Assembly: GCA_013360575.1 (NCBI GenBank)
Contig: JABWBG010000051.1
Coordinates: forward strand, 1-32,137
DNA length: 32,137 nt
Direction: 5' to 3'
Source of the DNA: Caldilineales bacterium
GTDB taxonomy: Bacteria > Chloroflexota > Anaerolineae > J102
Shown here: one piece after another, positions 3,572 through 31,670 of the stretch
Numbering within the stretch: position 1 is the stretch's first letter
Layout: each line of letters opens with the position of its first letter
Notes under the pieces: model-generated
The model's database searches: none
What the model saw: only the letters and a program-made list of their open reading frames with translations
Told to the model about the DNA's origin: nothing
Translations under genes and position numbers: made by a program

Positions 3572-5653
3572 ATGCACACAGCGCCCAAGCAGTTTGGCAA
3601 ATACGAGATCCTGGGCGAGTTGGGCCGGGGCGGGTTCGCCACGGTCTACCGCGCTCGCGACACGCGGCTGGGCCGCCAGACCGCGCTGAAGATCCTGGAT
3701 CCGGCCCGGAGTTGGGAGTCTGATTTCGCCGCCCGCTTTCTGCAGGAAGCCCAGGCCGCCGCCCAGCTCAAACACCCCCACATCATCACCATCTACGAGA
3801 TCGATGAGGTGGAGGGGCAACTGTTCATCGCCATGGAGTTGATCGAGGGTGGCAGCCTGCGCGACTATCTGCAAGCGGGGACGAGTGCGCTGGATGTGGG
3901 GGAAACGAGGGCCCTGCTGGCCCCGGTGGCCGCGGCCCTGGATCACGCGCATGCCCACGGCATGGTGCACCGCGACGTCAAGCCCGCCAACATCCTCCTC
4001 GACAGGATGAACGATGGTTCGGTGCGGGCGGTGCTCAGCGATTTTGGCATGGTGAAGGCGCTGGCGCAGAGCACGGAACTGACGCAATCGGGCGCCATCC
4101 TGGGCACGGTGGAATACATGGCGCCGGAGCAGGGAGACACGGCCCGCGCGCACGAGATCGGCCCCGCCGCCGACATCTACGCCCTGGGCGTGACCGCTTA
4201 TCACCTGCTCACCGGGCAGGTGCCCTTCACTGGCAGCACGGTGCAGGTGCTGATGGCCCACGCCAGCAAGCCGCCGCAGCCGCCGCATGAATTGCGCGCC
4301 GACCTGCCCCCTGCTGTCTCCGAAGCTATCTTGTGCGCGCTGGCCAAGCAACCGGGCGAGCGATTTCCTACGGCCCGCGCCTTTGTGCAGGCCCTGGCTG
4401 CGGCAGAGCCGCCTCCGCCCGAACCGGCCAAGCCACTGCCGGCAGAACCACTGCCGCTGCCGCTCGCGCCGGCCAAGCGCGAGCGCGGCCCCCTGCCCAT
4501 CGCCGCGGTGATCGTGGTAGTGCTGGTCGCCAGCATCTTGTGGGGGGCGCGGGCTATTGTGCTGCGCCGGCAACTGCCGACCTCGCGGGCCACGATCACG
4601 CCTGTTGCAATCGACTGCGACGCCATGGTCGCCACAGTCAGCGCCCTGAGCAACCAGAACAACTGCGAAAGCGCGGTGGCCGGCGCCGATGCGGCCATCG
4701 CCGCCGGCTGCCAGGATCGCTCGCTGTGGGAGAACCGGGCGATCTGCTACACCATGCTGGGGAAGGTGGATGCGGCGCTGGCCGATTTCGCCACAGCCCT
4801 GGATATGAACCCCGGCGACGCCTGGACCTATATCAACCGATCGTATGCGTACGAGAAGCAGGGGCGGCTGCCAGAAGCGCTGGCCGACCTGACCCAGGCG
4901 ATCACGCTGCAACCGGGCAACGCCGGCTTCTATTTCACCCGCGCTCACATCTACAAGCAACTGGCGCAGTTGAAAGATGCGCTGGCCGACCTGACCGCAG
5001 CCATCGACCTGGAGCCGGCCAACGCCGAGTACTACCTCAACCGCGGGGATCTGTATGAGAGGCTGGGCGAGTTGCCGGCAGCCGCGGCAGATTTCGAGCG
5101 GTTCGTGGCCCTGACCGCGGGCGACGACGCCTGGACGGACTATCGCGCGGCCCGCCAACAGTGGTTGCAGAGCTATCAGGCCGGTTTGGCGACGCTCATG
5201 CCGGCGACCACCGCCACGCCCATCAGCACGAGCACAGCGATTCCGCCCACGGCCACGCCCGCGCAGCCGGCGGCCCGGGTCAACAGCGTCGCCAACGTGC
5301 GCAGCGGCCCCGGCACGCAGTACGATCGCATCGGTGTGGCTGCCGCCGGCCAACGGTTCGATATCACGGGCAAGAACGGGGCGGAAACATGGTGGCAGAT
5401 CGATTTCAATGGCCGCGCGGGCTGGCTTTTCGCGGATCTGGTCAGCGCCGCGGGAGATTTGGGCCGCGTGTCTGTGGCGCCCGCGCCGCCCACACCCACG
5501 CGCGTCCCACCCACCGCCACGCCCATCCCGCCCACACCCACGCCTATCCCACCCACACCCGTTCCCCCCACCGCTACGACCGTTCCCCCCACGTCTGCGC
5601 CGCCCACCCCCACACCCGTCCCGCCGGCGACGCCCACCGCCGCGCCGCCCTAA
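3572..5653 (+). CDS. PknB-like Ser/Thr protein kinase with TPR and SH3 domains
   Basis: A 693-residue kinase with a different sensor from its neighbour. The kinase domain (about 11-280) has the glycine loop GRGGFATV (19-25), Lys40, HRDVKPAN (Asp135), DFG from Asp157 and EYMAPEQ. A Pro-rich linker precedes one membrane helix (about 308-330). Outside are three to four TPR-like repeats (about 350-520, for example NRGDLYERLGELPAAAADFE), then a bacterial SH3 domain (about 565-628, with NVRSGPGTQYDRIG and GWLFADLV). The C-terminus is a Pro/Thr tail of PPTATP type that may span the cell wall. SH3_3 domains often bind peptidoglycan, so wall-stress sensing is plausible but inferred. The ATG lies 3 bases after the previous stop (TGAGCGATG), implying translational coupling. 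Confidence 0.93.
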   Translation: MHTAPKQFGKYEILGELGRGGFATVYRARDTRLGRQTALKILDPARSWESDFAARFLQEAQAAAQLKHPHIITIYEIDEVEGQLFIAMELIEGGSLRDYLQAGTSALDVGETRALLAPVAAALDHAHAHGMVHRDVKPANILLDRMNDGSVRAVLSDFGMVKALAQSTELTQSGAILGTVEYMAPEQGDTARAHEIGPAADIYALGVTAYHLLTGQVPFTGSTVQVLMAHASKPPQPPHELRADLPPAVSEAILCALAKQPGERFPTARAFVQALAAAEPPPPEPAKPLPAEPLPLPLAPAKRERGPLPIAAVIVVVLVASILWGARAIVLRRQLPTSRATITPVAIDCDAMVATVSALSNQNNCESAVAGADAAIAAGCQDRSLWENRAICYTMLGKVDAALADFATALDMNPGDAWTYINRSYAYEKQGRLPEALADLTQAITLQPGNAGFYFTRAHIYKQLAQLKDALADLTAAIDLEPANAEYYLNRGDLYERLGELPAAAADFERFVALTAGDDAWTDYRAARQQWLQSYQAGLATLMPATTATPISTSTAIPPTATPAQPAARVNSVANVRSGPGTQYDRIGVAAAGQRFDITGKNGAETWWQIDFNGRAGWLFADLVSAAGDLGRVSVAPAPPTPTRVPPTATPIPPTPTPIPPTPVPPTATTVPPTSAPPTPTPVPPATPTAAPP
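3596..3661 (+). repeat. 66-bp exact repeat, copy 2 (kinase glycine-loop segment)
   Basis: Identical to 1742-1807 in the upstream kinase gene. The rest of the two kinase domains is similar but clearly diverged at the DNA level. Confidence 0.95.
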
Positions 5654-5684
5654 ACCGCAGTCCTCAGGGAGTAGTGACCCCGTG

Positions 5685-8207
5685 ATGGTGACCGTTCGCA
5701 AAAGCCTGCTGCTGGCGACCACAGCCTGTCTGGTCGTGATGCTGGCGCTGGTTGCGCGGGCGCAGGAGGATCCTTGGTGGCCGGGCCAGCAGGGGTTGTA
5801 CGGGGGAGATGTTGCCGCCCTAGTCTTCTCACCCAATTTCATCGCAGATGAGCTGGTCTTCGCCGGCACGAGGGGGGCCGGCGTGTTCCGTTCCAGCGAT
5901 GGCGGCCTCACCTGGCAGCCCGCCAGCAGCGGATTGGATTCGCGCACCATCTTCGCGTTGGCCATTTCGCCCGCATTTGCGTCGGATCAGACTATGTACG
6001 CCGGCACCGATTCGGTTGTGTTCAAAACCAGCGATGGCGGCCTCAGCTGGCAGAAAAGCGGGAATGGCATTGATGATTTTTACATCCGTGCGCTGGCCCT
6101 CGCCGGCGATTACGCCGCCAGCGGCATCCTCTACGCCGGCACTGGCGTAGGCGTGTTTCGCTCCACCGATGGCGGCAAATTCTGGCAAGCGCGCAACGCC
6201 GGACTGACCAATACCGATGTAAAAGCCCTGGTCGCCGCAACAGCCGAGAACCTGGATTGGGTCTTCGCCGGCACTGATCAGGGCGTTTTCAGATCTGATG
6301 ATCGCGGAAACGGTTGGACGGCAAGTTGGACCGGCATCACCGATCCCGAAATCACCGCCCTCGCCGTCTCGCCCGCTTTCGAGAGCGATCGCACCCTGTT
6401 CGCGGCCACAGAAAACGGTGGTGTGTTTCGATCGACGAATGGCGGAACCACATGGACACGCGCCAGCCAGGGGCTGGCCTCGTTACAAACATCGGTGTTG
6501 GCCCTGTCGCCGAATTTCGCTGCCGACCAAACCCTGTTCGCCGGCCTGGCCTGGGACGGCATCTCCAAATCGATCGACGCCGGAAACACCTGGCAATCGG
6601 TGCGCAACGGCCTGGCCAGTTGGAACAGCCTGGCGCTGGCCCCGGCCCCAACGTATGCCGAGGATGGCACGATCCTGGCCGGGTTAGGGCTGAATGGCGG
6701 AGTGAGCATGTCGACCGACGGTGGACAAAACTGGAGCAGCAAGAACACAGGCATCACCAATCTGCGGGTGAATGCAATCAGCGTGCCCCCACCACCGCAT
6801 CAACTTCCCACCCTGTTCATCGCCGCCGGCGGCGGGCGTCTTTTCCGTTCCGACAACCGCGGCGCCAGTTGGATACCGTCGCACACGGGCATCGGCGAAC
6901 GCACGCTGACCGATGTCGAAGTCTCGCCTGATTTCGCCGCCGACAACACCCTCTTCGCTGCCGGCAGCCTGGCGGGCGTTCATCGCAGCAGCGATGGCGG
7001 CCAGACCTGGACGCGTACCGGGGCCGGGCCGGTCGATGTGGCAACCGTGGCCCTCTCGCCCGCGTTCGCCAGCGACAACACCTTGTTTGCAGCCTCGAAC
7101 TTCCGCGGCGTTTATCGATCCGAGGACCGTGGCGCAAGCTGGCTGGGGATCAGCAATGGCCTGGGCGACCAGCGGGCGCTGATCCTGGCCCTGACGCCGA
7201 ACTATGCCAGCAGCGCCACGCTTTTCCTGGGCACGGATCGGGACGGCGTTTTCAAATCGACCAACCGCGGCGATTCCTGGATCGCCATCAACACCGGGCT
7301 GGGCACGGGCGAGGTGATGGCCGTGGCCGTGTCCCCGGCCTACGCCAGCGACGCCACCCTTTTTGCGGCCGTGTATAGCGATGGTCTGCATCGTTCGAGC
7401 GATGGCGGGGCCACTTGGGCGTTCATCGGGTGGGAATTGCCCACTATCATCATCCACGACGTGGCGCTCTCGCCCCACTATCCGCTCATACCTGGCATCT
7501 ATGTGGCCACGCAATGGGCAGGTGTGTATGAATCCACGGATGACGGCGTCACCTGGCGGGCGATCAACGAGGGGCTGCCCACCTCCGATGTCCGTTCTCT
7601 GGCCATCGACGCCTCTGGCGAATGGCTGTTCGCCGGAACATCTGACAATGGCCTCTGGTATCGCCCCCTGGCGGCAGGGACGATCAAGACAGTGTGGTTG
7701 CCGATGGTGGCGCTGCCGCAACCCTCGCCCACACCCACGGCCAGCCCCACCGCCACCCTCACCCCTACCCGCACACCGACCTCCACCCGCACGCCCACAC
7801 CCAGCCCCAGCCCCACAGCCACGGCCACGCCCACCCCCTTCTTCGAAGGCCCCTTCGAGCAGGAGCCGAACAACAGCTTTGCCAGCGCCAACGGCTGGCT
7901 GCGACTGGGCCGAAATTACTTCGGTTTCGCCAACGACCATGCCGACTGGTTCAGCATCCGCGCCAATAGCGCCGGCCAACTCGCCGTGTTGCTTTCCAAT
8001 CACAGCGGCGTCGATGTGGCCATCACTCTCTACGATGCCGGCCTGAACCTGGTGCAGCACGTAGCCCAGGCCGGCCCCGCCCCGACCACCCTACAACTCA
8101 ACGCCGACCTGCCCGCGGGCGGCGTCTACGGCGTGCGCATCATCTCTGCCGGCAACTTCAACAGCAACACCCCCTACACGTTGCACCTCACCTTTCTCGC
8201 GGATTGA
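5685..8207 (+). CDS. Secreted BNR/YCF48-like multi-repeat protein with C-terminal PPC domain
   Basis: A protein of 840 residues from the ATG at 5685; an adjacent GTG at 5682 is possible. AGGGAG at 5666-5671 serves as a ribosome site. The frame extends upstream into the previous gene, but the signal-like segment [20 protein letters not shown] fits this start. It holds thirteen full repeats plus a half repeat of ~45 residues of the type [15 protein letters not shown]...[12 protein letters not shown], the BNR/sortilin/YCF48-like propeller pattern (about residues 40-660). A Pro/Thr linker follows. The last ~120 residues (from about 720, starting [11 protein letters not shown]) match the bacterial pre-peptidase C-terminal (PPC) domain. 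No catalytic site is visible. Two stacked propellers acting as a surface binding scaffold are likely. The linker/PPC start is shared almost exactly with the next gene. Confidence 0.85.
7806..7877 (+). repeat. 72-bp exact repeat, copy 1 (linker/PPC junction)
   Basis: Bases 7806-7877 are identical to 9800-9871. They encode the end of the Pro/Thr linker and the first residues of the PPC domain ([13 protein letters not shown]). Downstream the two PPC domains diverge. Confidence 0.95.
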
Positions 8208-23835: not shown

Positions 23836-24219
23836 TTGAGCAAATTCATCCTCATCGGCGCCGGCGGTTTCGTGGGCGCGGTGCTGCGCTATGTGGTCAG
23901 CGGCGCGGCCCAATCCCTCAGCCACAGCGCCGGCTTCCCCTACGGCACCCTTGTCGTCAACCTCAGCGGCTGCCTGATCATCGGTTTCCTGGCGCGGCTG
24001 GCCGATCTGCAAGGCCTGTTCAGCGCGGATGCGCGGCTGTTTCTCTTCATCGGCGTGCTGGGCGCTTTTACCACCTTCTCCACCTTTGGCAACGAGACCT
24101 ACGCCCTGCTGCAAGGAGGGGAGATCGGCCTGGCCCTGCTGAATGTGGGGGCCAGCGTGCTGGCGGGACTGGCCGCGGTGTGGGTGGGGCATGGTCTAGC
24201 CACCTGGATCGCGTTCTAA
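23836..24219 (+). CDS. crcB: Fluoride ion channel CrcB/Fluc
   Basis: A 127-residue four-helix membrane protein that exports fluoride as an antiparallel dimer. Conserved GAGGFVGAVLRY, GTLVVNLSGCLIIGF (Asn42) and GAFTTFSTFGNE (Phe and Thr residues 78-84) are all present. The start is TTG at 23836 with GGAG at 23824-23827. No fluoride riboswitch is recognisable upstream. The DUF190 gene follows at once. Confidence 0.95.
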   Translation: MSKFILIGAGGFVGAVLRYVVSGAAQSLSHSAGFPYGTLVVNLSGCLIIGFLARLADLQGLFSADARLFLFIGVLGAFTTFSTFGNETYALLQGGEIGLALLNVGASVLAGLAAVWVGHGLATWIAF

Positions 24220-24234
24220 AGGAGGTATCCCCCC

Positions 24235-24579
24235 ATGACACTCCCCCAAACCGGCCATCTGTTGCGCATTTTCATCGGTGAATCGGACAAATACGAGGGC
24301 AAGCCGCTGTACGAGTGGATTCTGGCGCAGGCGCGTGGCCACGGTCTGGCCGGGGCCACGGTGCTGCGCGGGATTATGGGGTTCGGCGCGCACAGCCGCA
24401 TCCACACGGCCAAGATCATGCGGCTCTCCACCGATCTACCGATCATCATCGAGATCGTGGACACGCGCGAGAAACTGGAGGCCTTCATGCCCCTGATCGA
24501 TACGGCCATCGCCGAGGGCCTGGCCACGCTGGAAAAGGCGGAGGTGTGGTTCTATCGCAGCAGAAGGGAGAGGGACTGA
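24235..24579 (+). CDS. DUF190 family PII-like protein
   Basis: A 114-residue protein of the DUF190 family, whose fold resembles PII regulators. Visible features: GHLLRIFIGESDKYEGKPLY, GLAGATVLRGIMGFG and LPIIIEIVDTREKLEAFMP. DUF190 genes commonly stand next to crcB, as here. A strong AAAGGAGGT overlaps the end of crcB, supporting an operon. A regulatory role for the channel is inferred from context only. Confidence 0.92.
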   Translation: MTLPQTGHLLRIFIGESDKYEGKPLYEWILAQARGHGLAGATVLRGIMGFGAHSRIHTAKIMRLSTDLPIIIEIVDTREKLEAFMPLIDTAIAEGLATLEKAEVWFYRSRRERD

Positions 24580-24730: not shown

Positions 24731-25165
24731 ATGCCGATAGAGACCTCTTTTCGTATCAACAGCCCCCACGTCATCGCCGAAGTCATCGAAGACGAGGCGA
24801 TTATCGTCAATCTGGACAGCGGCGCCTATTACAGCCTGCGCGACGCCGGCGCCCTCATTTGGCGCCTGATCGAACAGGGCGCGGCCTTTCCGCAACTTGT
24901 CGGCGAGCTAGCGCAGCGCTACGAAGGAACCGAAGCCGGCATCGCAGCGGGCGCGCGCAATCTGATCGCCGAATTGCAGGGCGAGGGATTGATCCTCGCT
25001 GGCCAGGCAGCCGCGCCGGGCGCCTTCTCCTTGCCTGCGCACAACGGCCGCCCCCCTTTCCAACCGCCGGCGCTGGAAAAATACACTGATATGGCCGACC
25101 TGCTCCTGCTCGACCCCATCCACGAGGTGGACGAGGGGCAGGGCTGGCCCGCGCCGCGGCGATAA
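24731..25165 (+). CDS. PqqD-family protein with C-terminal peptide-like tail
   Basis: A 144-residue protein. Residues ~5-95 form a PqqD-like domain (VIAEVIEDEAIIVNLDSGAY, YYSLRDAGALIWRLIEQG, RNLIAELQGEGLI), the fold used as a RiPP recognition element that binds leader peptides. A Pro-rich bridge leads to a tail (112-144) with PPALEKYTDMADLLLLDPIH followed by EVDEGQGWP. This tail is not part of canonical PqqD and has the look of a short conserved peptide motif. AAGGA at 24715-24719 supports the ATG at 24731; an in-frame ATG at 24692 is the alternative. The preceding 150 bases are AT-rich and non-coding. An ABC exporter follows after 8 bases. A RiPP-like role is inference. Confidence 0.8.
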   Translation: MPIETSFRINSPHVIAEVIEDEAIIVNLDSGAYYSLRDAGALIWRLIEQGAAFPQLVGELAQRYEGTEAGIAAGARNLIAELQGEGLILAGQAAAPGAFSLPAHNGRPPFQPPALEKYTDMADLLLLDPIHEVDEGQGWPAPRR

Positions 25166-25173
25166 GGGCAGGC

Positions 25174-27048
25174 ATGTTTTCTCCCGGCAGGGCCACCAAA
25201 TTGTACGACGCCAGGGCGCAGCAACTGGCCTCCCCGCGCGGTCAGTTGGCCCAACTGCGCTACGTGCCCCGCGCCTTACGCCTGGTCTGGAAGGCTGCCT
25301 CTGGCTGGAGTCTGGCTTCGACCGCGCTGTTGGTGATCCAGGGCCTGCTGCCGGTCGTCACCGTCTATCTGACCCGCACCCTGGTCAATGCCCTGGTTTC
25401 GGTGGTGGAGAGTGGCGGCAATCAGGCAGCCTTGCAGCCGGCCCTGAGCGCCATCTTGCTGTTGGGCGGGGTGATCCTGGCCGGTGAGCTGTTGGGCAGC
25501 GTCCAGGCCTATGTGCGTTTGCTGCTGGCCGAACGCACACAGGATCACATGAACGACCTGATCCACGACAAGGCCATCGCTCTGGATCTGCACTTCTTCG
25601 AATCGCCGACCTATTACGACCAATTGCAACGGGCCAGCATCGATGCCGTCGACCGGCCCCTGGGCCTGCTGGAAAGCCTGAACAGCCTGTTGCAAAACGC
25701 CATCACCCTGGCAGCGATGGCCGGCGTGCTGCTCACCTTTGCCTGGTGGATGCCCCTGGTGCTGCTGGCGGGCACCCTGCCGGCGTTGTGGGCCGCCTTG
25801 CAGGCCACTGTGCTCTTTCACAAGTGGCGGCTGGTCAACACCACCAACCAGCGCCGGCTGCTCTACTATAGCCGTTCGCTTTCTCTGGAACAGGCCGCGG
25901 CCGAAATGCGGCTGTTTGCTCTGGGCGAGCATTTCAAACAGGCCTACAACAGCCTGCGCCGCCGCTTGCGCCAGGAGCGGTTGGGGCTGTTTCGGCGGCA
26001 GATGGCCGCGCAGATGGCCGCCAGCCTGGCCGGGCTGCTCAGCCTGGCCCTGGCCCTGGGCTGGATGGCCTGGCAGTCCTTGGTCGGCCGCTTCAATCTG
26101 GGCGATCTGGCTATGTTCTGGCAGGCGATGAGCCAGGGCCAACGGCTGATGCGCGGCCTGCTCACCGGTTTCAACGATATCTACCGCAATTTGCTCTTTC
26201 TGGAAGATTTGTTCACTTTCCTGGATCTGAGGCCCACGCTGAAGGATCCGGCCCAGCCGCAGCCGCTGGCCCCCGGCTTGCAGCAGGGCATCGCCGTCGA
26301 GGCGGTGACCTTTGCCTACCCTGCCAGCGAGAACAAAGCATTGCAGATGTTCTCGCTGGCCATCCCCGCCGGCCAGATCGTGGCCATCGTGGGCGAGAAT
26401 GGCGCGGGCAAGAGCACCTTGCTCAAGCTGCTTTGCCGCTTTTATGACCCGCAGGAAGGCCGCATCACCTGGGATGGCGTGGATCTGCGTCATCTGGCCC
26501 AGGCCGACCTGCGCCGGCGCATCACCGTGCTCTTCCAGCAGCCTTTCCCCTACCACGACAGCGTGGCCGACAACATCCGCTTCGGCGATCTGGCCGCGCT
26601 GCCGGATCGGGCGCGCATCGAACAGGCGGCCGGCGCGGCCGCGGCGGAGGAGATCATCCGCCGCCTGCCGCAGGGCTACGACACGATCCTGGGCAAGTGG
26701 TTCGGCTACACCGAGTTGAGCGTGGGCGAGTGGCAGCGGCTGGCGCTGGCCCGCGCCTTCGTGCGCCAGGCCGACCTGGTGATCCTGGACGAGCCGACCA
26801 GCGCCATGGACAGTTGGGCCGAGGCCGCGTGGATGGCCCGCTTCCGCGAGTTGGTAGCCGGCCGCACCGCGCTGATCATCACCCACCGCTTCACGACAGC
26901 GATGCAGGCCGACGTGATCCACGTGATGCACGCGGGCCGCATCGTCGAATCGGGCACGCACGCCGAATTGGTGGCGTTGGGCGGGCGCTACGCCGCGTCC
27001 TGGCGGGCGCAGATGCGGGAGGCGGGGGGCGGCGCTCCCGTGATATAG
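25174..27048 (+). CDS. ABC transporter, fused permease and ATPase (exporter type)
   Basis: A 624-residue half-transporter. The membrane domain with about six helices spans residues ~40-330. The nucleotide-binding domain has Walker A GENGAGKST (407-415), signature LSVGEWQR (515-522, a variant of LSGGQ), Walker B VILDEPTS (Asp539, Glu540) and switch His571. There is no N-terminal C39 peptidase domain, so any leader removal would need another enzyme. It is expected to act as a homodimer exporting a lipid-linked glycan, peptide or small molecule. Genes on either side suggest export of the cluster product. Confidence 0.93.
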   Translation: MFSPGRATKLYDARAQQLASPRGQLAQLRYVPRALRLVWKAASGWSLASTALLVIQGLLPVVTVYLTRTLVNALVSVVESGGNQAALQPALSAILLLGGVILAGELLGSVQAYVRLLLAERTQDHMNDLIHDKAIALDLHFFESPTYYDQLQRASIDAVDRPLGLLESLNSLLQNAITLAAMAGVLLTFAWWMPLVLLAGTLPALWAALQATVLFHKWRLVNTTNQRRLLYYSRSLSLEQAAAEMRLFALGEHFKQAYNSLRRRLRQERLGLFRRQMAAQMAASLAGLLSLALALGWMAWQSLVGRFNLGDLAMFWQAMSQGQRLMRGLLTGFNDIYRNLLFLEDLFTFLDLRPTLKDPAQPQPLAPGLQQGIAVEAVTFAYPASENKALQMFSLAIPAGQIVAIVGENGAGKSTLLKLLCRFYDPQEGRITWDGVDLRHLAQADLRRRITVLFQQPFPYHDSVADNIRFGDLAALPDRARIEQAAGAAAAEEIIRRLPQGYDTILGKWFGYTELSVGEWQRLALARAFVRQADLVILDEPTSAMDSWAEAAWMARFRELVAGRTALIITHRFTTAMQADVIHVMHAGRIVESGTHAELVALGGRYAASWRAQMREAGGGAPVI

Positions 27049-27155
27049 TCCGGCGTGCCGAGCCAAGACGCAGAACTGAGACCCAAGCCAGCCCAAATGG
27101 AGATACCGCGATCCGCAAATCATGCCTGGCAGCTCCTTTTCGTCGGCTTCGACAG

Positions 27156-27899
27156 GTGCGCTGGCGGCTGCGCACCTGGCAGACCCGGCAGAGACGCCTA
27201 CGTTTTTATCGCCAGTTCATTCCGCACGGCGGGCTGTGCTTCGATGTGGGCGCCAACGTGGGCAACCGCGCAGATTTGTTCCTGGCGCTGGGGGCGCGCG
27301 TGATTGCTGTCGAGCCAGTCGCCGAGACGGCCGCCCTGCTGCGCCAACGCTTTGCTCAGAACTCGCGATTGATTGTGCTGGAGACCGCGCTGGATGCAAC
27401 AGAGGGCCAAACGACTATCACCGTTTGTTCGCCTCACTGGCTGTCAAGCATCTCAGCCGACTGGCTGGCCGCTACCGAACGTACCGGCCGCTTTCCACGG
27501 CGCAAGATCATCGCAAAGCGCGTGACGTCCCTTACCACTCTGGATCATTTGATCAGCGTTTACGGTGTGCCGGCTTTCATCAAGATTGATGTGGAGGGCT
27601 ACGAGTTGCAGGTGCTACGCGGACTGTCGCAGCCTGTCCCGACGCTGTCCTTTGAATATCACCCCGAGACGCTGCATGAGGCAGCGGCCTGTCTGGAGCA
27701 CCTGACCAGTCTGGGCGCGCTGCACGCCAATTTCTCGCGCGGCGAAAGCCTGACCTGGGCGCTGCCGGAGTGGCAAACGCCGGCGCAACTGCTTGCCCAA
27801 TTGAATGAAGAAACCACCCACGATCGGTTACAATTCGGCGATATCTACGTTCGTTACGAACGACCGCACTATCAGCAGAAGACCGGACGGAGCTCCTGA
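27156..27899 (+). CDS. FkbM family methyltransferase
   Basis: About 247 residues from a GTG at 27156. The SAM-binding region begins GGLCFDVGANVGNRADLF and continues VIAVEPVAETAALL; later LDHLISVYGVPAFIKIDVEG and TLSFEYHPETL are typical of FkbM O-methyltransferases that act on sugars or natural products. The frame is open far upstream into the ABC gene but there is only a shadow. No in-frame ATG precedes the domain and no clear ribosome site precedes the GTG, so the start is uncertain. The next gene begins 3 bases after the stop. Confidence 0.8.
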   Translation: MRWRLRTWQTRQRRLRFYRQFIPHGGLCFDVGANVGNRADLFLALGARVIAVEPVAETAALLRQRFAQNSRLIVLETALDATEGQTTITVCSPHWLSSISADWLAATERTGRFPRRKIIAKRVTSLTTLDHLISVYGVPAFIKIDVEGYELQVLRGLSQPVPTLSFEYHPETLHEAAACLEHLTSLGALHANFSRGESLTWALPEWQTPAQLLAQLNEETTHDRLQFGDIYVRYERPHYQQKTGRSS

Positions 27900-27901
27900 C
27901 G

Positions 27902-28669
27902 ATGACGGCGTATTTCAGACAACTGGCCGGTTCCGCCTGGCGCGCTTTGAGCCACCGTTGGCCGCGGGCGGATCCTCGCCAGCGAGTCGAGGCCATCTTT
28001 CATAACGATCACTACTTGCGCCTGACTGCGCGTTCCCTGGAGCATCTCGCCAGTCTGGGCCTACCCCTGCGCGGGCGCACGGTGCTGGAGGTCGGCGCCG
28101 GCGCAGGCGACTACTCCAGCTTCTTCATAGATCGCGAGTGCCACATCACCATCACCGATGTGCGCCCGGAACTGCTGGCCTACTTGCGCCGCCGCTACCC
28201 GGAACAGGATGTGCAGCATCTAGACCTGGAAACGCCGGCCCCTCTGACCGGTGCGCCCTTCGAGGTCGTTTTCTGCTATGGCGTGCTCTATCATCTGCGC
28301 CAGCCGGCCCAGGCGCTGGCCTACCTGAACGACTGCTGCCGCGACCTGCTACTGGTCTCATCCCAGGTCGTCTATGGCGACGAAGAGGATATCGTCCTGG
28401 TAGATGAACAGCAGGCGCGGCTCGGTCAATCTTACTACGGACGCGGCGCACGTTTCACCCGCAGATGGCTTTGGCAACAACTGCGCCATCACTTCCCGCA
28501 TGTCTATTTGCCCATCATCCAGCCCGCGCATCCTCAATTCCCCACCGACTGGACCTTACAGCCTGTCAAGGAGGAGTTGGTGCGCGCTGTTTTTGTCGCC
28601 GCGCGGCAGCCGTTAACCAATCCGCTGCTGACCGAAGCCTGGCTGGATCACCAAGAGCGCCAGCCATAG
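27902..28669 (+). CDS. Class I SAM-dependent methyltransferase
   Basis: A 255-residue Rossmann-fold methyltransferase. Motif I TVLEVGAGAGDYSSFFI (about 60-76), acidic residue in ITITDVRPELLAYL, then VVFCYGVLYHLRQPAQALAY (motif IV/post-I region) are all present. Substrate unknown; in context a glycan or peptide of the cluster. GGAG at 27888-27891 supports the ATG. Confidence 0.88.
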   Translation: MTAYFRQLAGSAWRALSHRWPRADPRQRVEAIFHNDHYLRLTARSLEHLASLGLPLRGRTVLEVGAGAGDYSSFFIDRECHITITDVRPELLAYLRRRYPEQDVQHLDLETPAPLTGAPFEVVFCYGVLYHLRQPAQALAYLNDCCRDLLLVSSQVVYGDEEDIVLVDEQQARLGQSYYGRGARFTRRWLWQQLRHHFPHVYLPIIQPAHPQFPTDWTLQPVKEELVRAVFVAARQPLTNPLLTEAWLDHQERQP

Positions 28670-28672
28670 GGG

Positions 28673-29731
28673 ATGAGCGTGACAGCACTGGCAGAGCGTA
28701 GTCTGACCGTGGCGTGCTGGGCCGGGCTTGGCAACCGGCTGCGGGTGTTGATCTCCGGGTTGACCGTAGCCGCAGCCAGCGATCGCCGCTTCACGATGCT
28801 CTGGCCGCGCACGCGGGATTGCGCCGCCAGCTTCATGGATTTATTCGTGAACGACTGGCCGGTAGAGGAAGCCCCCCTGACGGCAGTCAAGGATCTGCCT
28901 CCCTATCTTGGCTACTACTGTCCGCCGCTGCCGGACGCGTTGACCTCGCCTGAGCCGCACCTGGCCCTGCTGACGCCGCACTGGCTGCTGGAACCCGCGC
29001 GCTCCCCACGCCACGTGGCGCTGCTGCCCACGTGTGCGGCGCTGCTGGCCGCGTTGGAACCGGCGCCGCTGCTGGCCGACCAGATTGCCGCGTTCAAAGC
29101 GGCCCATTTCCGCCCGCGCATGATCGGCGTGCATCTGCGCCGGGGCGACTTTCTGTTTTATGGGGCCGGGGCGGCCGATAACTTTGCCAGCAGCCGGCGC
29201 GCGGTGGAAGGCTTGCTGCGCCAGTGGCCGGATGCCGGCATTTTCCTGTGCAGCGACGACGGCGCCGGCGACCCCTACCAGGCCCGCCGCGCGGTGGCCG
29301 GCGTCCACGCCGCCTATCGCCAGCATTTCAGCGAACGCGTCGTCTGGCGCACGCCGTCCAGCCTGGACCGCAGTCAGCCCGCGGCCACCCAGGATGCCCT
29401 GGTCGACCTCTGGTTGCTGCGCGCCACCGATGGCTTTGTCGGCACGCCGGACAGCAGCTTTTCCGAGATGGCGGTCTTTGGCCGCTCCGTTCCGACTCGC
29501 TGGGCCGAGCCGGATGGTTGGCGCTACCGGCTGGCGGCGGGGCTGCTCAACGCTGCCGGCATTGCCTGGCTGCTGCGACAGCAGGGCCGACGGCGCTTTG
29601 GCCGGGAGCTTTCGCTGCTGCGACTGATGGATTACCACTGGCGGCGCTGGCGTGGGCGGTCTGTTGTCAACGATGCGCGCGCCTGGCGGCGACACGCGTT
29701 GCCCCTGGCGCAGCCGGCAGAGAAGCGTTGA
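28673..29731 (+). CDS. Fucosyltransferase-like (NodZ/GT23-type) glycosyltransferase
   Basis: A 352-residue protein. The N-terminus has GLGNRLRVLISGLTVAAASD, the usual start of alpha-1,6-fucosyltransferase/NodZ-like enzymes. Residues ~150-160 read IGVHLRRGDF, the GDP-fucose-binding Arg motif (HxRRGD). Near 250-270 is DLWLLRATDGFVGTPDSSFS, the conserved C-terminal motif. No membrane helix is evident. It would transfer fucose or a similar sugar from a GDP-sugar to a surface glycan. ATG at 28673 is 3 bases after the previous stop; GTG at 28679 is an alternative. Confidence 0.8.
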   Translation: MSVTALAERSLTVACWAGLGNRLRVLISGLTVAAASDRRFTMLWPRTRDCAASFMDLFVNDWPVEEAPLTAVKDLPPYLGYYCPPLPDALTSPEPHLALLTPHWLLEPARSPRHVALLPTCAALLAALEPAPLLADQIAAFKAAHFRPRMIGVHLRRGDFLFYGAGAADNFASSRRAVEGLLRQWPDAGIFLCSDDGAGDPYQARRAVAGVHAAYRQHFSERVVWRTPSSLDRSQPAATQDALVDLWLLRATDGFVGTPDSSFSEMAVFGRSVPTRWAEPDGWRYRLAAGLLNAAGIAWLLRQQGRRRFGRELSLLRLMDYHWRRWRGRSVVNDARAWRRHALPLAQPAEKR

Positions 29732-29742
29732 GGCCAACCACC

Positions 29743-30708
29743 ATGCGCGTCTCGCTTGAACCGCCGCCCGTCTATTTCATGCACCTGCCCAAAACCGCCG
29801 GCACTGCCCTGGGCCGCTGGCTGCGCATGGGCTACCATCGCAACCGCTACATTGATCTGCGCGCCGAAGAACTGGAGCGCCTGACGCAGGCTGATCTGCC
29901 GCGGTTCCGCTGCTTCCATGCCTGGCACCTGGGCCGCGGGCTGTACGATTTGATCGGGCGCAGCGATCTCTTGTGCGTGACGATGCTGCGCGAACCCATC
30001 GAGCGGGCGGTATCGGCGGTACGCCATCATCAGCGCACCGGGCAGGATCACCCGGAGCGCATCTCACCCGCGCATCTGGCGCAGATGCAGCCCTGGCTGA
30101 TGGCGGACAGTGAGGCGTGCATCCGGGCCGGCGTCGCGGACGCGCCGCTCCAGAACGCGCAGACACGCGTGCTGGGCAATCGTCGGGGCTATGCCCAGCT
30201 CTTCCGCGGCGCGGCCCAGCCCAGTGCGCGCACGCTCCTCTTCGCTGCTTATCCGGTGCTCGACTATCCGTGGTTGGATCAGCAGACACCGGAAGATGAC
30301 GCCGGCAGCTTCCAGCGGGCGCAGGCCTGGCTGGACGAGATGGCCGTGGTCGGCCTGACCGAGCGCTACGCCGAGTCGCTGCTGCTGATGGGCGACCTGC
30401 TCGGCATCCCGATTCCGGCTGAACCACCCCGCGCCAACATCAACCCGCAGCGCAGCGGCCCGGCCATGCGCTATCGGGATCAGCTTGCGCCGGAGGTGGT
30501 GGCCCGGCTGGAGGAGCTGAACCGCTACGACCTGGAACTCTACGCCCACGCCACCGAACTCTTCGAGCAGCAGTGGGCACGCTACCGGGCGCGGGCGCGC
30601 CGGACGTTTAGCATTGCCGCGCACGCACGGCAAACGCTGCGACCGCTGAAGGCGCAGATCAGGCGTATCATGCGTACACCATCCAAACGATTGGCCGGAT
30701 CACCATGA
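29743..30708 (+). CDS. Sulfotransferase (PAPS-dependent), first tandem copy
   Basis: A 321-residue cytoplasmic sulfotransferase family protein. The PAPS 5'-phosphosulfate loop is HLPKTAGTALGRW with Lys17. The 3'-phosphate motif is TMLREPIERAVSA. The C-terminal half (199-293) has EMAVVGLTERYAESLLLMGD and DLELYAHATELFEQQWARYR. ATG at 29743 chosen because the frame before it overlaps the previous gene. It overlaps the next gene by four bases (ATGA). It likely sulfates a carbohydrate made by this cluster; substrate unknown. Confidence 0.85.
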   Translation: MRVSLEPPPVYFMHLPKTAGTALGRWLRMGYHRNRYIDLRAEELERLTQADLPRFRCFHAWHLGRGLYDLIGRSDLLCVTMLREPIERAVSAVRHHQRTGQDHPERISPAHLAQMQPWLMADSEACIRAGVADAPLQNAQTRVLGNRRGYAQLFRGAAQPSARTLLFAAYPVLDYPWLDQQTPEDDAGSFQRAQAWLDEMAVVGLTERYAESLLLMGDLLGIPIPAEPPRANINPQRSGPAMRYRDQLAPEVVARLEELNRYDLELYAHATELFEQQWARYRARARRTFSIAAHARQTLRPLKAQIRRIMRTPSKRLAGSP

Positions 30709-31670
30709 AATTGCTGCTTGAACCACTACCCATTTACTTTTTGCACGTGCCCAAAACGGGTGGTGTCGCTCTCGGAAACTGGCTGCGCCGCGCCTACGGT
30801 CAAGGCTATTTCGATCTGGACCTGCCCCAAATCACGAAGCTGACGGGCCGGAGCATTCGGGACTTCCGATGCTATCATGCCTGGCATCATGGCCGCAGCA
30901 TGTTCGACTGGCTTGGCCGGGGCGATCTCATGGTGATCACCATGCTCCGCGATCCCGTCGAAAGAGTCGTATCGGGATTCAAGTTCCACCAACGAAGGGC
31001 CGTAGAGAAACCGGCTAACTGGAAACCAGAATACTTGACTATGATGCGCCCGATCCAACACAGCCGTATCGAAGATAGCCTGGAGCATGAGGTGATCACC
31101 CGCAGACTCAGCAACGGCCAGGTGCGTCTGTTAGGCATCCGCAAGGACTACGCTGCATTTCTCACCACCCTCCGCCAGAACCGTCAGTCTGACACGCTGT
31201 TGCGGCCCTATGATGTCCCCGTACTCAGCGATCCGGACAACTTGCCCCTGCTCTACGCCAACGCCCGCGCCTGGCTGAACGAGATGGCCGTCGTCGGCCT
31301 GACCGAGCGCTACGCCGAATCGCTACAGTTGATGGGCGACCTGCTCGGCATCCCGGTTCCGGGAGAACCACCCCGGGCCAACGTGAACCCGCAGCGCGCC
31401 GACCCGGCCATGCGCTACCGGGATCAGCTTGCGCCGGATGTGATCGCCCGGCTGGAAGAGTTGAACCGGTATGACCTGGAACTCTACGCCCACGCCACCG
31501 AGCTATTCGAGCAGCAGTGGGCGCGCTACCGGGCGCGACCGCGGCGGACTTACAGTATTGCCGCGTCTGTGCGCCATCACCTGCATCCCGCCAGGGAGAG
31601 GGCGAAACAGATGGTCAAGCAAACGCCCTTGCTGGCGCAGATTTACGCCGGTATCCGAAAGCGAGGTTGA
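30705..31670 (+). CDS. Sulfotransferase (PAPS-dependent), second tandem copy
   Basis: A 321-residue paralogue of the preceding protein. PAPS loop HVPKTGGVALGNW (Lys17), 3'-phosphate motif TMLRDPVERVVSG. The C-terminal ~95 residues (193-287) differ from the first copy at only ten positions, whereas the N-terminal and middle parts are much more diverged, so acceptor specificity probably differs. Translationally coupled to the first copy. Confidence 0.87.
   Translation: MKLLLEPLPIYFLHVPKTGGVALGNWLRRAYGQGYFDLDLPQITKLTGRSIRDFRCYHAWHHGRSMFDWLGRGDLMVITMLRDPVERVVSGFKFHQRRAVEKPANWKPEYLTMMRPIQHSRIEDSLEHEVITRRLSNGQVRLLGIRKDYAAFLTTLRQNRQSDTLLRPYDVPVLSDPDNLPLLYANARAWLNEMAVVGLTERYAESLQLMGDLLGIPVPGEPPRANVNPQRADPAMRYRDQLAPDVIARLEELNRYDLELYAHATELFEQQWARYRARPRRTYSIAASVRHHLHPARERAKQMVKQTPLLAQIYAGIRKRG

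Follow-up and report, generated by a model that had tools for sequence, protein, structure and literature searches.

We describe a PqqD protein that, as is well supported by computation, would be an RRE carrying its own ligand, with the first half of its C-terminal tail docked on the domain, because a leader motif in the tail is placed on the domain by AF2 and because the covariation of residues 110 and 74 matches the contact of the LppB-LppA complex. The usual role of a PqqD/RRE protein is to grip the leader of another peptide. The remainder of the tail, DPIH(D/E)V...GWP, is predicted to be free of the domain. We see about an even chance that this RRE fused to its own leader presents a fixed peptide as a docking handle for neighbouring enzymes.

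The gene was found in the window, the whole stretch of 32,137 nucleotides that was analysed; this stretch is an entire contig of a genome of 3.9 Mb that is split into 403 contigs. The protein and its neighbours have the following features.

24731..25165, + strand: PqqD-tail gene, an ORF of 144 aa with an ATG start, read as an RRE domain fused to a leader-like ligand of its own and to an invariant C-terminal peptide
24746..25003, + strand: RRE (PqqD) domain, residues 6-91 (AF2 pLDDT 95-97 over most of it; Foldseek)
25004..25057, + strand: variable Ala/Pro-rich linker, residues 92-109 (0.75 bits per column over 91-108; low pLDDT in the L085 protein)
25058..25084, + strand: cis leader motif F110-x-x-P113-x-L115-E-K-Y118, predicted to lie in the RRE groove (AF2, covariation, 103/111 homologues)
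25085..25162, + strand: predicted free C-terminal peptide T119-R144 (conservation; pLDDT about 60 after a short helix in both models)
25174..27048, + strand: MsbA-like ABC exporter, 8 nt downstream (Pfam ABC_tran, NCBIfam MsbA-type)
27117..27899, + strand: FkbM-family methyltransferase (PF05050 / TIGR01444)
27902..28669, + strand: class I methyltransferase (Pfam Methyltransf_12/25/11)
28673..29731, + strand: fucosyltransferase-like protein, weak (O-FucT E 0.003, below the Pfam gathering score)
29728..30708, + strand: sulfotransferase-like protein, Sulfotransfer_2 (PF03567, E 3e-5)
30705..31670, + strand: sulfotransferase, Sulfotransfer_2 (PF03567, E 2.9e-8)

The initial annotation had proposed a PqqD-like domain with a peptide-like C-terminal tail, followed by an exporter, two methyltransferases, a fucosyltransferase-like enzyme and two sulfotransferases. 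The tailed domain is real: Pfam PqqD (PF05402) matched residues 22-88 with 51 bits (E 1.6e-13), and the tail LEKYTDMADLLLLDPIHEVDEGQGWP occupies residues 115-140. The order of the downstream genes was also borne out by Pfam and NCBIfam, weakly for the fucosyltransferase-like one. The genes 3ʹ of the exporter are tightly packed or overlapping, and the gene cluster runs on beyond the end of the window. No C39 peptidase domain was found in the exporter, and no promoter- or terminator-like site was found 5ʹ of the PqqD-tail gene. At the margins of this region, genes for a CrcB-type fluoride channel and then a DUF190 protein lie just upstream (23836-24579) and are apparently unrelated, and a partial ORF with a DSD motif, possibly a glycosyltransferase, reaches toward the contig end (31670-32137).

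The domain was identified as a PqqD-type winged helix with a peptide groove by Pfam, by Foldseek and by its conserved groove residues. Foldseek of the AF2 domain model returned TbiB1 (5V1V/5V1U; for 5V1V, E 7.7e-6, rmsd 1.2) and TfuB1 (6JX3), and the best structural matches were lasso B1 proteins solved with their leaders. The groove residues, transferred via ungapped alignments to 9X90 and 9X8Z, are Y34, L36, I43, L60, Y64, position 74, position 78, L82 and L87, and they are conserved among homologues. In lasso, LPP and related pathways, the RRE binds the motif [Y/W]xxPx[L/V/I/F/A] in a groove between the third strand and the third helix (PMC12710340, PMC13381572, PMC7470986). The start of the tail has the form of this RRE-bound leader motif, [F/Y/W]xxPx[L/V/I/F], and [FYWL]xxPx[LVIFMA] was present in the tail of 103 of 111 homologues.

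AF2 set the leader motif on the domain both in the window protein (pLDDT 95, with a strand at 116-118) and in the cyanobacterial L085 protein (pLDDT 97); the two proteins are divergent, but most of one alignment was common to both runs. The linker was modelled with a pLDDT of 59-78 (59-73 for the stretch in L085), and the part after the motif with about 60. In crystals, leaders run W/Y-xx-P-x-L and then form a strand, in the same register as in the tail (PMC13381572), and in the PbaB1 crystal the leader residues that follow PxL pair with the RRE at the place of the predicted strand 116-118.

Covariation between domain and tail pointed to the same groove. The best partner of residue 110 was groove position 74: Asp74 accompanied Tyr110 in 20 of 32 sequences and Phe110 in 1 of 65 (Fisher 1.5e-11; 2.4e-6 when thinned to 42% identity). 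In an ungapped alignment, position 74 corresponds to Asp70 of LppB, the residue that forms a hydrogen bond with the leader Tyr in the LppB-LppA crystal (PMC13381572). The top covarying pair between domain and tail was K117-E85, with some charge-swapped E-K cases. In tree-independent pairs, Tyr110-Asp74 always went in the expected direction, with only five resolved pairs and not significantly. Covariation and AF2 fit docking within one chain and exchange of tails between two copies of the protein alike. The suggestion in the initial annotation that the protein is self-recognising was thus strengthened, in that AF2, covariation and the comparison with crystals (PMC13381572) all point to the first half of the tail as an RRE-binding leader motif.

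The tail is an addition outside the PqqD fold, because untailed PqqD relatives stop 0-7 residues past the end of the domain; this also agrees with the earlier view of it as a small peptide-like element and speaks against its being part of the fold in most PqqD homologues. Mapped on a tree of 101 domains, presence of the tail required 3 changes versus 32 in shuffles, which, with few columns and many open forks, is consistent with one origin of the tail and few losses. The tail alone matched no family in Pfam or NCBIfam, and its profile had no match in the PDB.

In the nine tailed proteins first collected, which came from a cyanobacterial plasmid and five genomes of the phylum, 14 of the 19 invariant columns lie in the tail, more than chance would give. 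The plasmid copy, in Crinalium, is followed by genes for NTP_transf_5, HPr kinase and an FkbM methyltransferase. A degenerate DNA scan for the motif in a species-level genome collection gave at least 113 loci. Among the matches listed, PqqD plus tail formed one frame in 98 of 113 loci; the other 15 comprised 12 chance or unrelated matches and three incomplete loci (L113, masked; L155, at a contig start; L122). The conservation of the L-x-DPIH-[DE]-V columns is biased because the scan itself selected them, and that of the remaining columns is not. Outside the scan pattern, D120 was conserved in 99%, P113 in 95%, GWP in 96% and an aromatic residue at 110 in 95%. The mean information per column over 112 homologues was 2.96 bits in the tail, 1.86 in the domain and 0.75 in the linker, which makes the tail the most conserved part of the protein. 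Within the T119-R144 peptide, D120, M121, LLL, D128-P-I-H-E-V and GWP are invariant.

By record titles, the loci span about a dozen bacterial phyla; most are MAGs, so the labels may err. The tail matched in 9 of 301 genomes of the phylum, three of the nine being weak or variant, and a tailed copy was present in 9 of 194 cyanobacterial genomes. When 40 whole genomes were searched with a profile, the tail matched 45 times, and 43 of these matches lay in PqqD-sized frames; the other two were a contig-edge fragment and a weak chance frame lacking the motif.

The tail was also searched for as a stand-alone short ORF or a separate precursor, as the initial annotation had advised, and nothing convincing was obtained. 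No stand-alone tail peptide was found in the 301 genomes of the phylum, and no convincing one in the profile search of 40 tail-bearing genomes or among the matches listed in the genome-contig scan (at least 113 loci); viral contigs gave one chance match only. Small-ORF clustering and a leader-motif search near the tail genes gave no plausible conserved separate precursor, and neither the LPP precursor YxxPxVLxHQxIxFETxxS nor another leader-bearing small ORF was found there.

Several individual loci depart from the common form. At L122 (minus strand), a linker and tail occur with no recognisable PqqD in a 3.5 kb stretch; a truncation or chimera is suspected, a true stand-alone tail being possible. 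At L205 (G305:C723; ORF frame 5515-6495, + strand), a tailed PqqD lies between NTP_transf_5 and HprK genes, and the protein keeps the leader half (APYATPELQKYSDMADLLALDP) with a different C-terminal half (LDPPMPGVMDFPWQEPSGKASG; PMPGVMDFPWQEPSGKASG). Two cyanobacterial genomes of 1.8-2.1 Mb encode HprK-like kinases with a C-terminal RRE and a leader-like end without DPIH (L231:9711-11264 and L232:9781-11319), and next to each kinase is a separate PqqD that bears DPIH and has an extended tail (GWTPEKDSIGYTKEET). In L060 (G392:C115), tailed and untailed PqqD genes share a locus, and a B2-type protease is encoded 4.5 kb away from the tailed one.

Tailed PqqD genes stand nearly always beside genes for sugar-, phosphate- or sulfate-adding enzymes and exporters. 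Among the matches listed, 52 loci had 3 kb or more of downstream sequence, and every one of these had an HprK-like kinase, NTP_transf_5, a glycosyltransferase or an ABC protein on the same strand, so that contexts without any exporter or modifying enzyme, which could have spoken against the earlier reading, were not the rule; a few loci, L161, L203 and L090, have no obvious exporter or modifying set. In these 52 loci, HprK was counted in 42, NTP in 21 and ABC in 17, the last including some importers, which the ABC profile also catches (NMT1/BPD-type importer genes lie behind the ABC matches of L161 and L090). With matched short flanks, HprK accompanied 13 of 18 tailed versus 5 of 35 untailed PqqD genes, and GT2 accompanied 11 of 18 versus 0 of 35. 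Residue 122 went with the next gene, Ala with ABC in 5 of 6 cases and Gln with HprK in 37, in a manner confounded with clade.

The window represents a minority form of the family locus, with an exporter, methyltransferases and sulfotransferases; together with L096, L112 and probably L055 it belongs to a small group with an adjoining ABC exporter. HprK and NTP_transf_5 were absent from the remaining 5 kb of the window contig. Elsewhere in this genome, contig C243 carries another tailed copy that is 38% identical over its full length, in company with several glycosyltransferases, an NTP_transf_5 protein and an HprK-like kinase; on C241 lies a PqqD with no tail.

The initial annotation had also advised looking for a protease gene beyond the window; in general, no leader peptidase accompanied the tail gene. 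The leader peptidase B2 (PF13471) occurred within 15 kb of the tail gene in just 2 of 41 genomes and PF00733 (Asn-synthase-type cyclase) near it in just 1 of 41 (14-21 kb); the window genome had neither nearby. No SpI-like peptidase (TIGR02228; archaeal-type SpI) was found within 70 kb on the same contig in the 41 genomes. A lasso peptide cluster was rejected on the rarity of cyclase and B2 near the tail gene (1 and 2 of 41 genomes). In G422:C3 (4229420-4250298), two B2-type protease matches lie at a distance of some 10 kb from the tail gene, and two Asn-synthase-type proteins at 14-21 kb, which recalls the LPP/lasso co-localisation in Bacillota.

From these results we propose that the PqqD groove would hold, in cis, F110-x-x-P-x-L115-E-K-Y in the register that lasso and LPP leaders adopt, and that the pre-assembled unit would present a single fixed peptide, DPIH(D/E)V...GWP, outside the groove; both steps are supported by the computations above. 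The fixed peptide would most likely serve as a docking handle for the adjacent sugar-, phosphate- or sulfate-transferring enzymes and the exporter, and the gathered enzymes would act on a partner substrate in glycan-type loci, not on a separate small precursor. Since the window lacks HprK and NTP_transf_5 in its remaining 5 kb, the handle there would have to dock to the exporter or to the transferases. The LPP kinase phosphorylates Ser3 of the precursor LppA, 18 residues past the anchoring aromatic (PMC13381572); because Asp128 has the same register, at +18 from its aromatic, the handle may be a built-in pseudo-substrate.

A less probable alternative is a fused RRE-precursor, in which the exposed peptide would be a core modified by HprK, NTP_transf_5 and glycosyltransferases, or by the methyl- and sulfotransferases in the window, with the product exported. 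The enzyme set resembles that of the LPP and phosphorylated lasso pathways (PMC13381572; pseudomycoidin PsmK/PsmN, PMC9266682), whose kinases act on a residue past the RRE-docked leader. The failure of the small-ORF and leader-motif searches to give another precursor would also fit, as would the G305 relative, which retains the leader half and swaps the C-terminal half for LDPPMPGVMDFPWQEPSGKASG, and the two small cyanobacterial genomes in which an HprK with its own RRE and a leader-like end without DPIH stands beside a DPIH-bearing PqqD. However, the acceptor of LPP and paeninodin-type kinases is serine (PMC13381572), and six HprK-adjacent members (L051, L053, L058, L088, L103 and L118) have zero Ser/Thr from residue 119 to the end, which leaves Ser/Thr phosphorylation unsupported as a general function of the tail. 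Asp, His or Trp of the exposed peptide could be modified instead. The leader peptidase is generally absent nearby, and the exposed half is almost invariant, unlike most RiPP cores, so that cleavage or export of the tail, as the initial annotation envisaged, found no support. Because these six members lack Ser/Thr and the exposed half hardly varies from phylum to phylum, we favour a docking handle over a modified core. Of the initial reading, self-recognition therefore stood, and a separate precursor, cleavage and export did not; its other option, a tail that docks to a partner enzyme, would fit the exposed half better than the precursor option.

It is unlikely that the family is a widespread RiPP-like system with domain, leader and core in one chain, the core being a ribosomal primer for glycan assembly; a phosphate, sugar or sulfate structure would then be built on the invariant core in surface-glycan loci and exported. 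Quite unlikely, too, is an autoinhibitory plug, a tail that fills the groove until displaced by a true precursor encoded elsewhere: the predicted cis docking on a flexible linker would suit it, but no leader-motif candidate was found near the genes, and the invariant DPIH...GWP beyond the groove would be left unexplained. Very improbable is a tail that presents nothing and acts as an ordinary extension stabilising the PqqD fold, since, although the first half packs on the domain in the AF2 models, untailed relatives finish at the domain and the unpacked half is conserved as much as the packed half, or more.

Neither the RRE fold nor the leader motif nor the enzyme set is new. The arrangement in one chain and the tail motif were absent from Pfam, NCBIfam and the literature searched, a library that leaves most subscription-journal and bioRxiv-only work outside, and the motif string occurred in no paper of it. 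RREs are the hallmark for mining RiPP clusters; such mining assumes a separate precursor and would overlook or misinterpret a large RRE family with domain and ligand in one chain. A built-in pair of RRE and ligand also makes covariation readable within single sequences, and through the family a connection of RiPP machinery with surface-glycan loci could be tested in many phyla.

Among known systems, the linear polyphosphorylated peptide (LPP) RiPP system, LppA/K/B/S/D/N (PMC13381572), is close. Both have a discrete RRE with the same fold and groove and a [Y/W]xxP leader motif, in glycan-type loci; the HprK-like kinase, NTP transferase and MsbA-like exporter of LPP have common counterparts in the tail family, the window copy having the exporter alone. 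In LPP the leader motif is on a separate precursor, whereas here it is fused to the RRE; the tail family lacks the LPP consensus past the motif and an SpI peptidase nearby; and it spans many phyla, whereas LPP belongs to Bacillota. No kinase is in sight of the window copy. The HPr-rel-A system (PqqD TIGR04353; HprK-related kinases A/B, TIGR04352 and TIGR04355) likewise combines a PqqD with an HprK-like kinase, but the kinases here score far below the TIGR cut-offs and the TIGR04353 model spans the domain only; the paralogue scored 23.3 bits against its cut-off of 35 and the window protein was not among the matches, which places neither in that family. The discrete lasso-peptide RREs (B1: TbiB1, TfuB1, PbaB1) are the closest solved structures by sequence and fold and share the leader register; they are single domains, unlike the tailed PqqD proteins.
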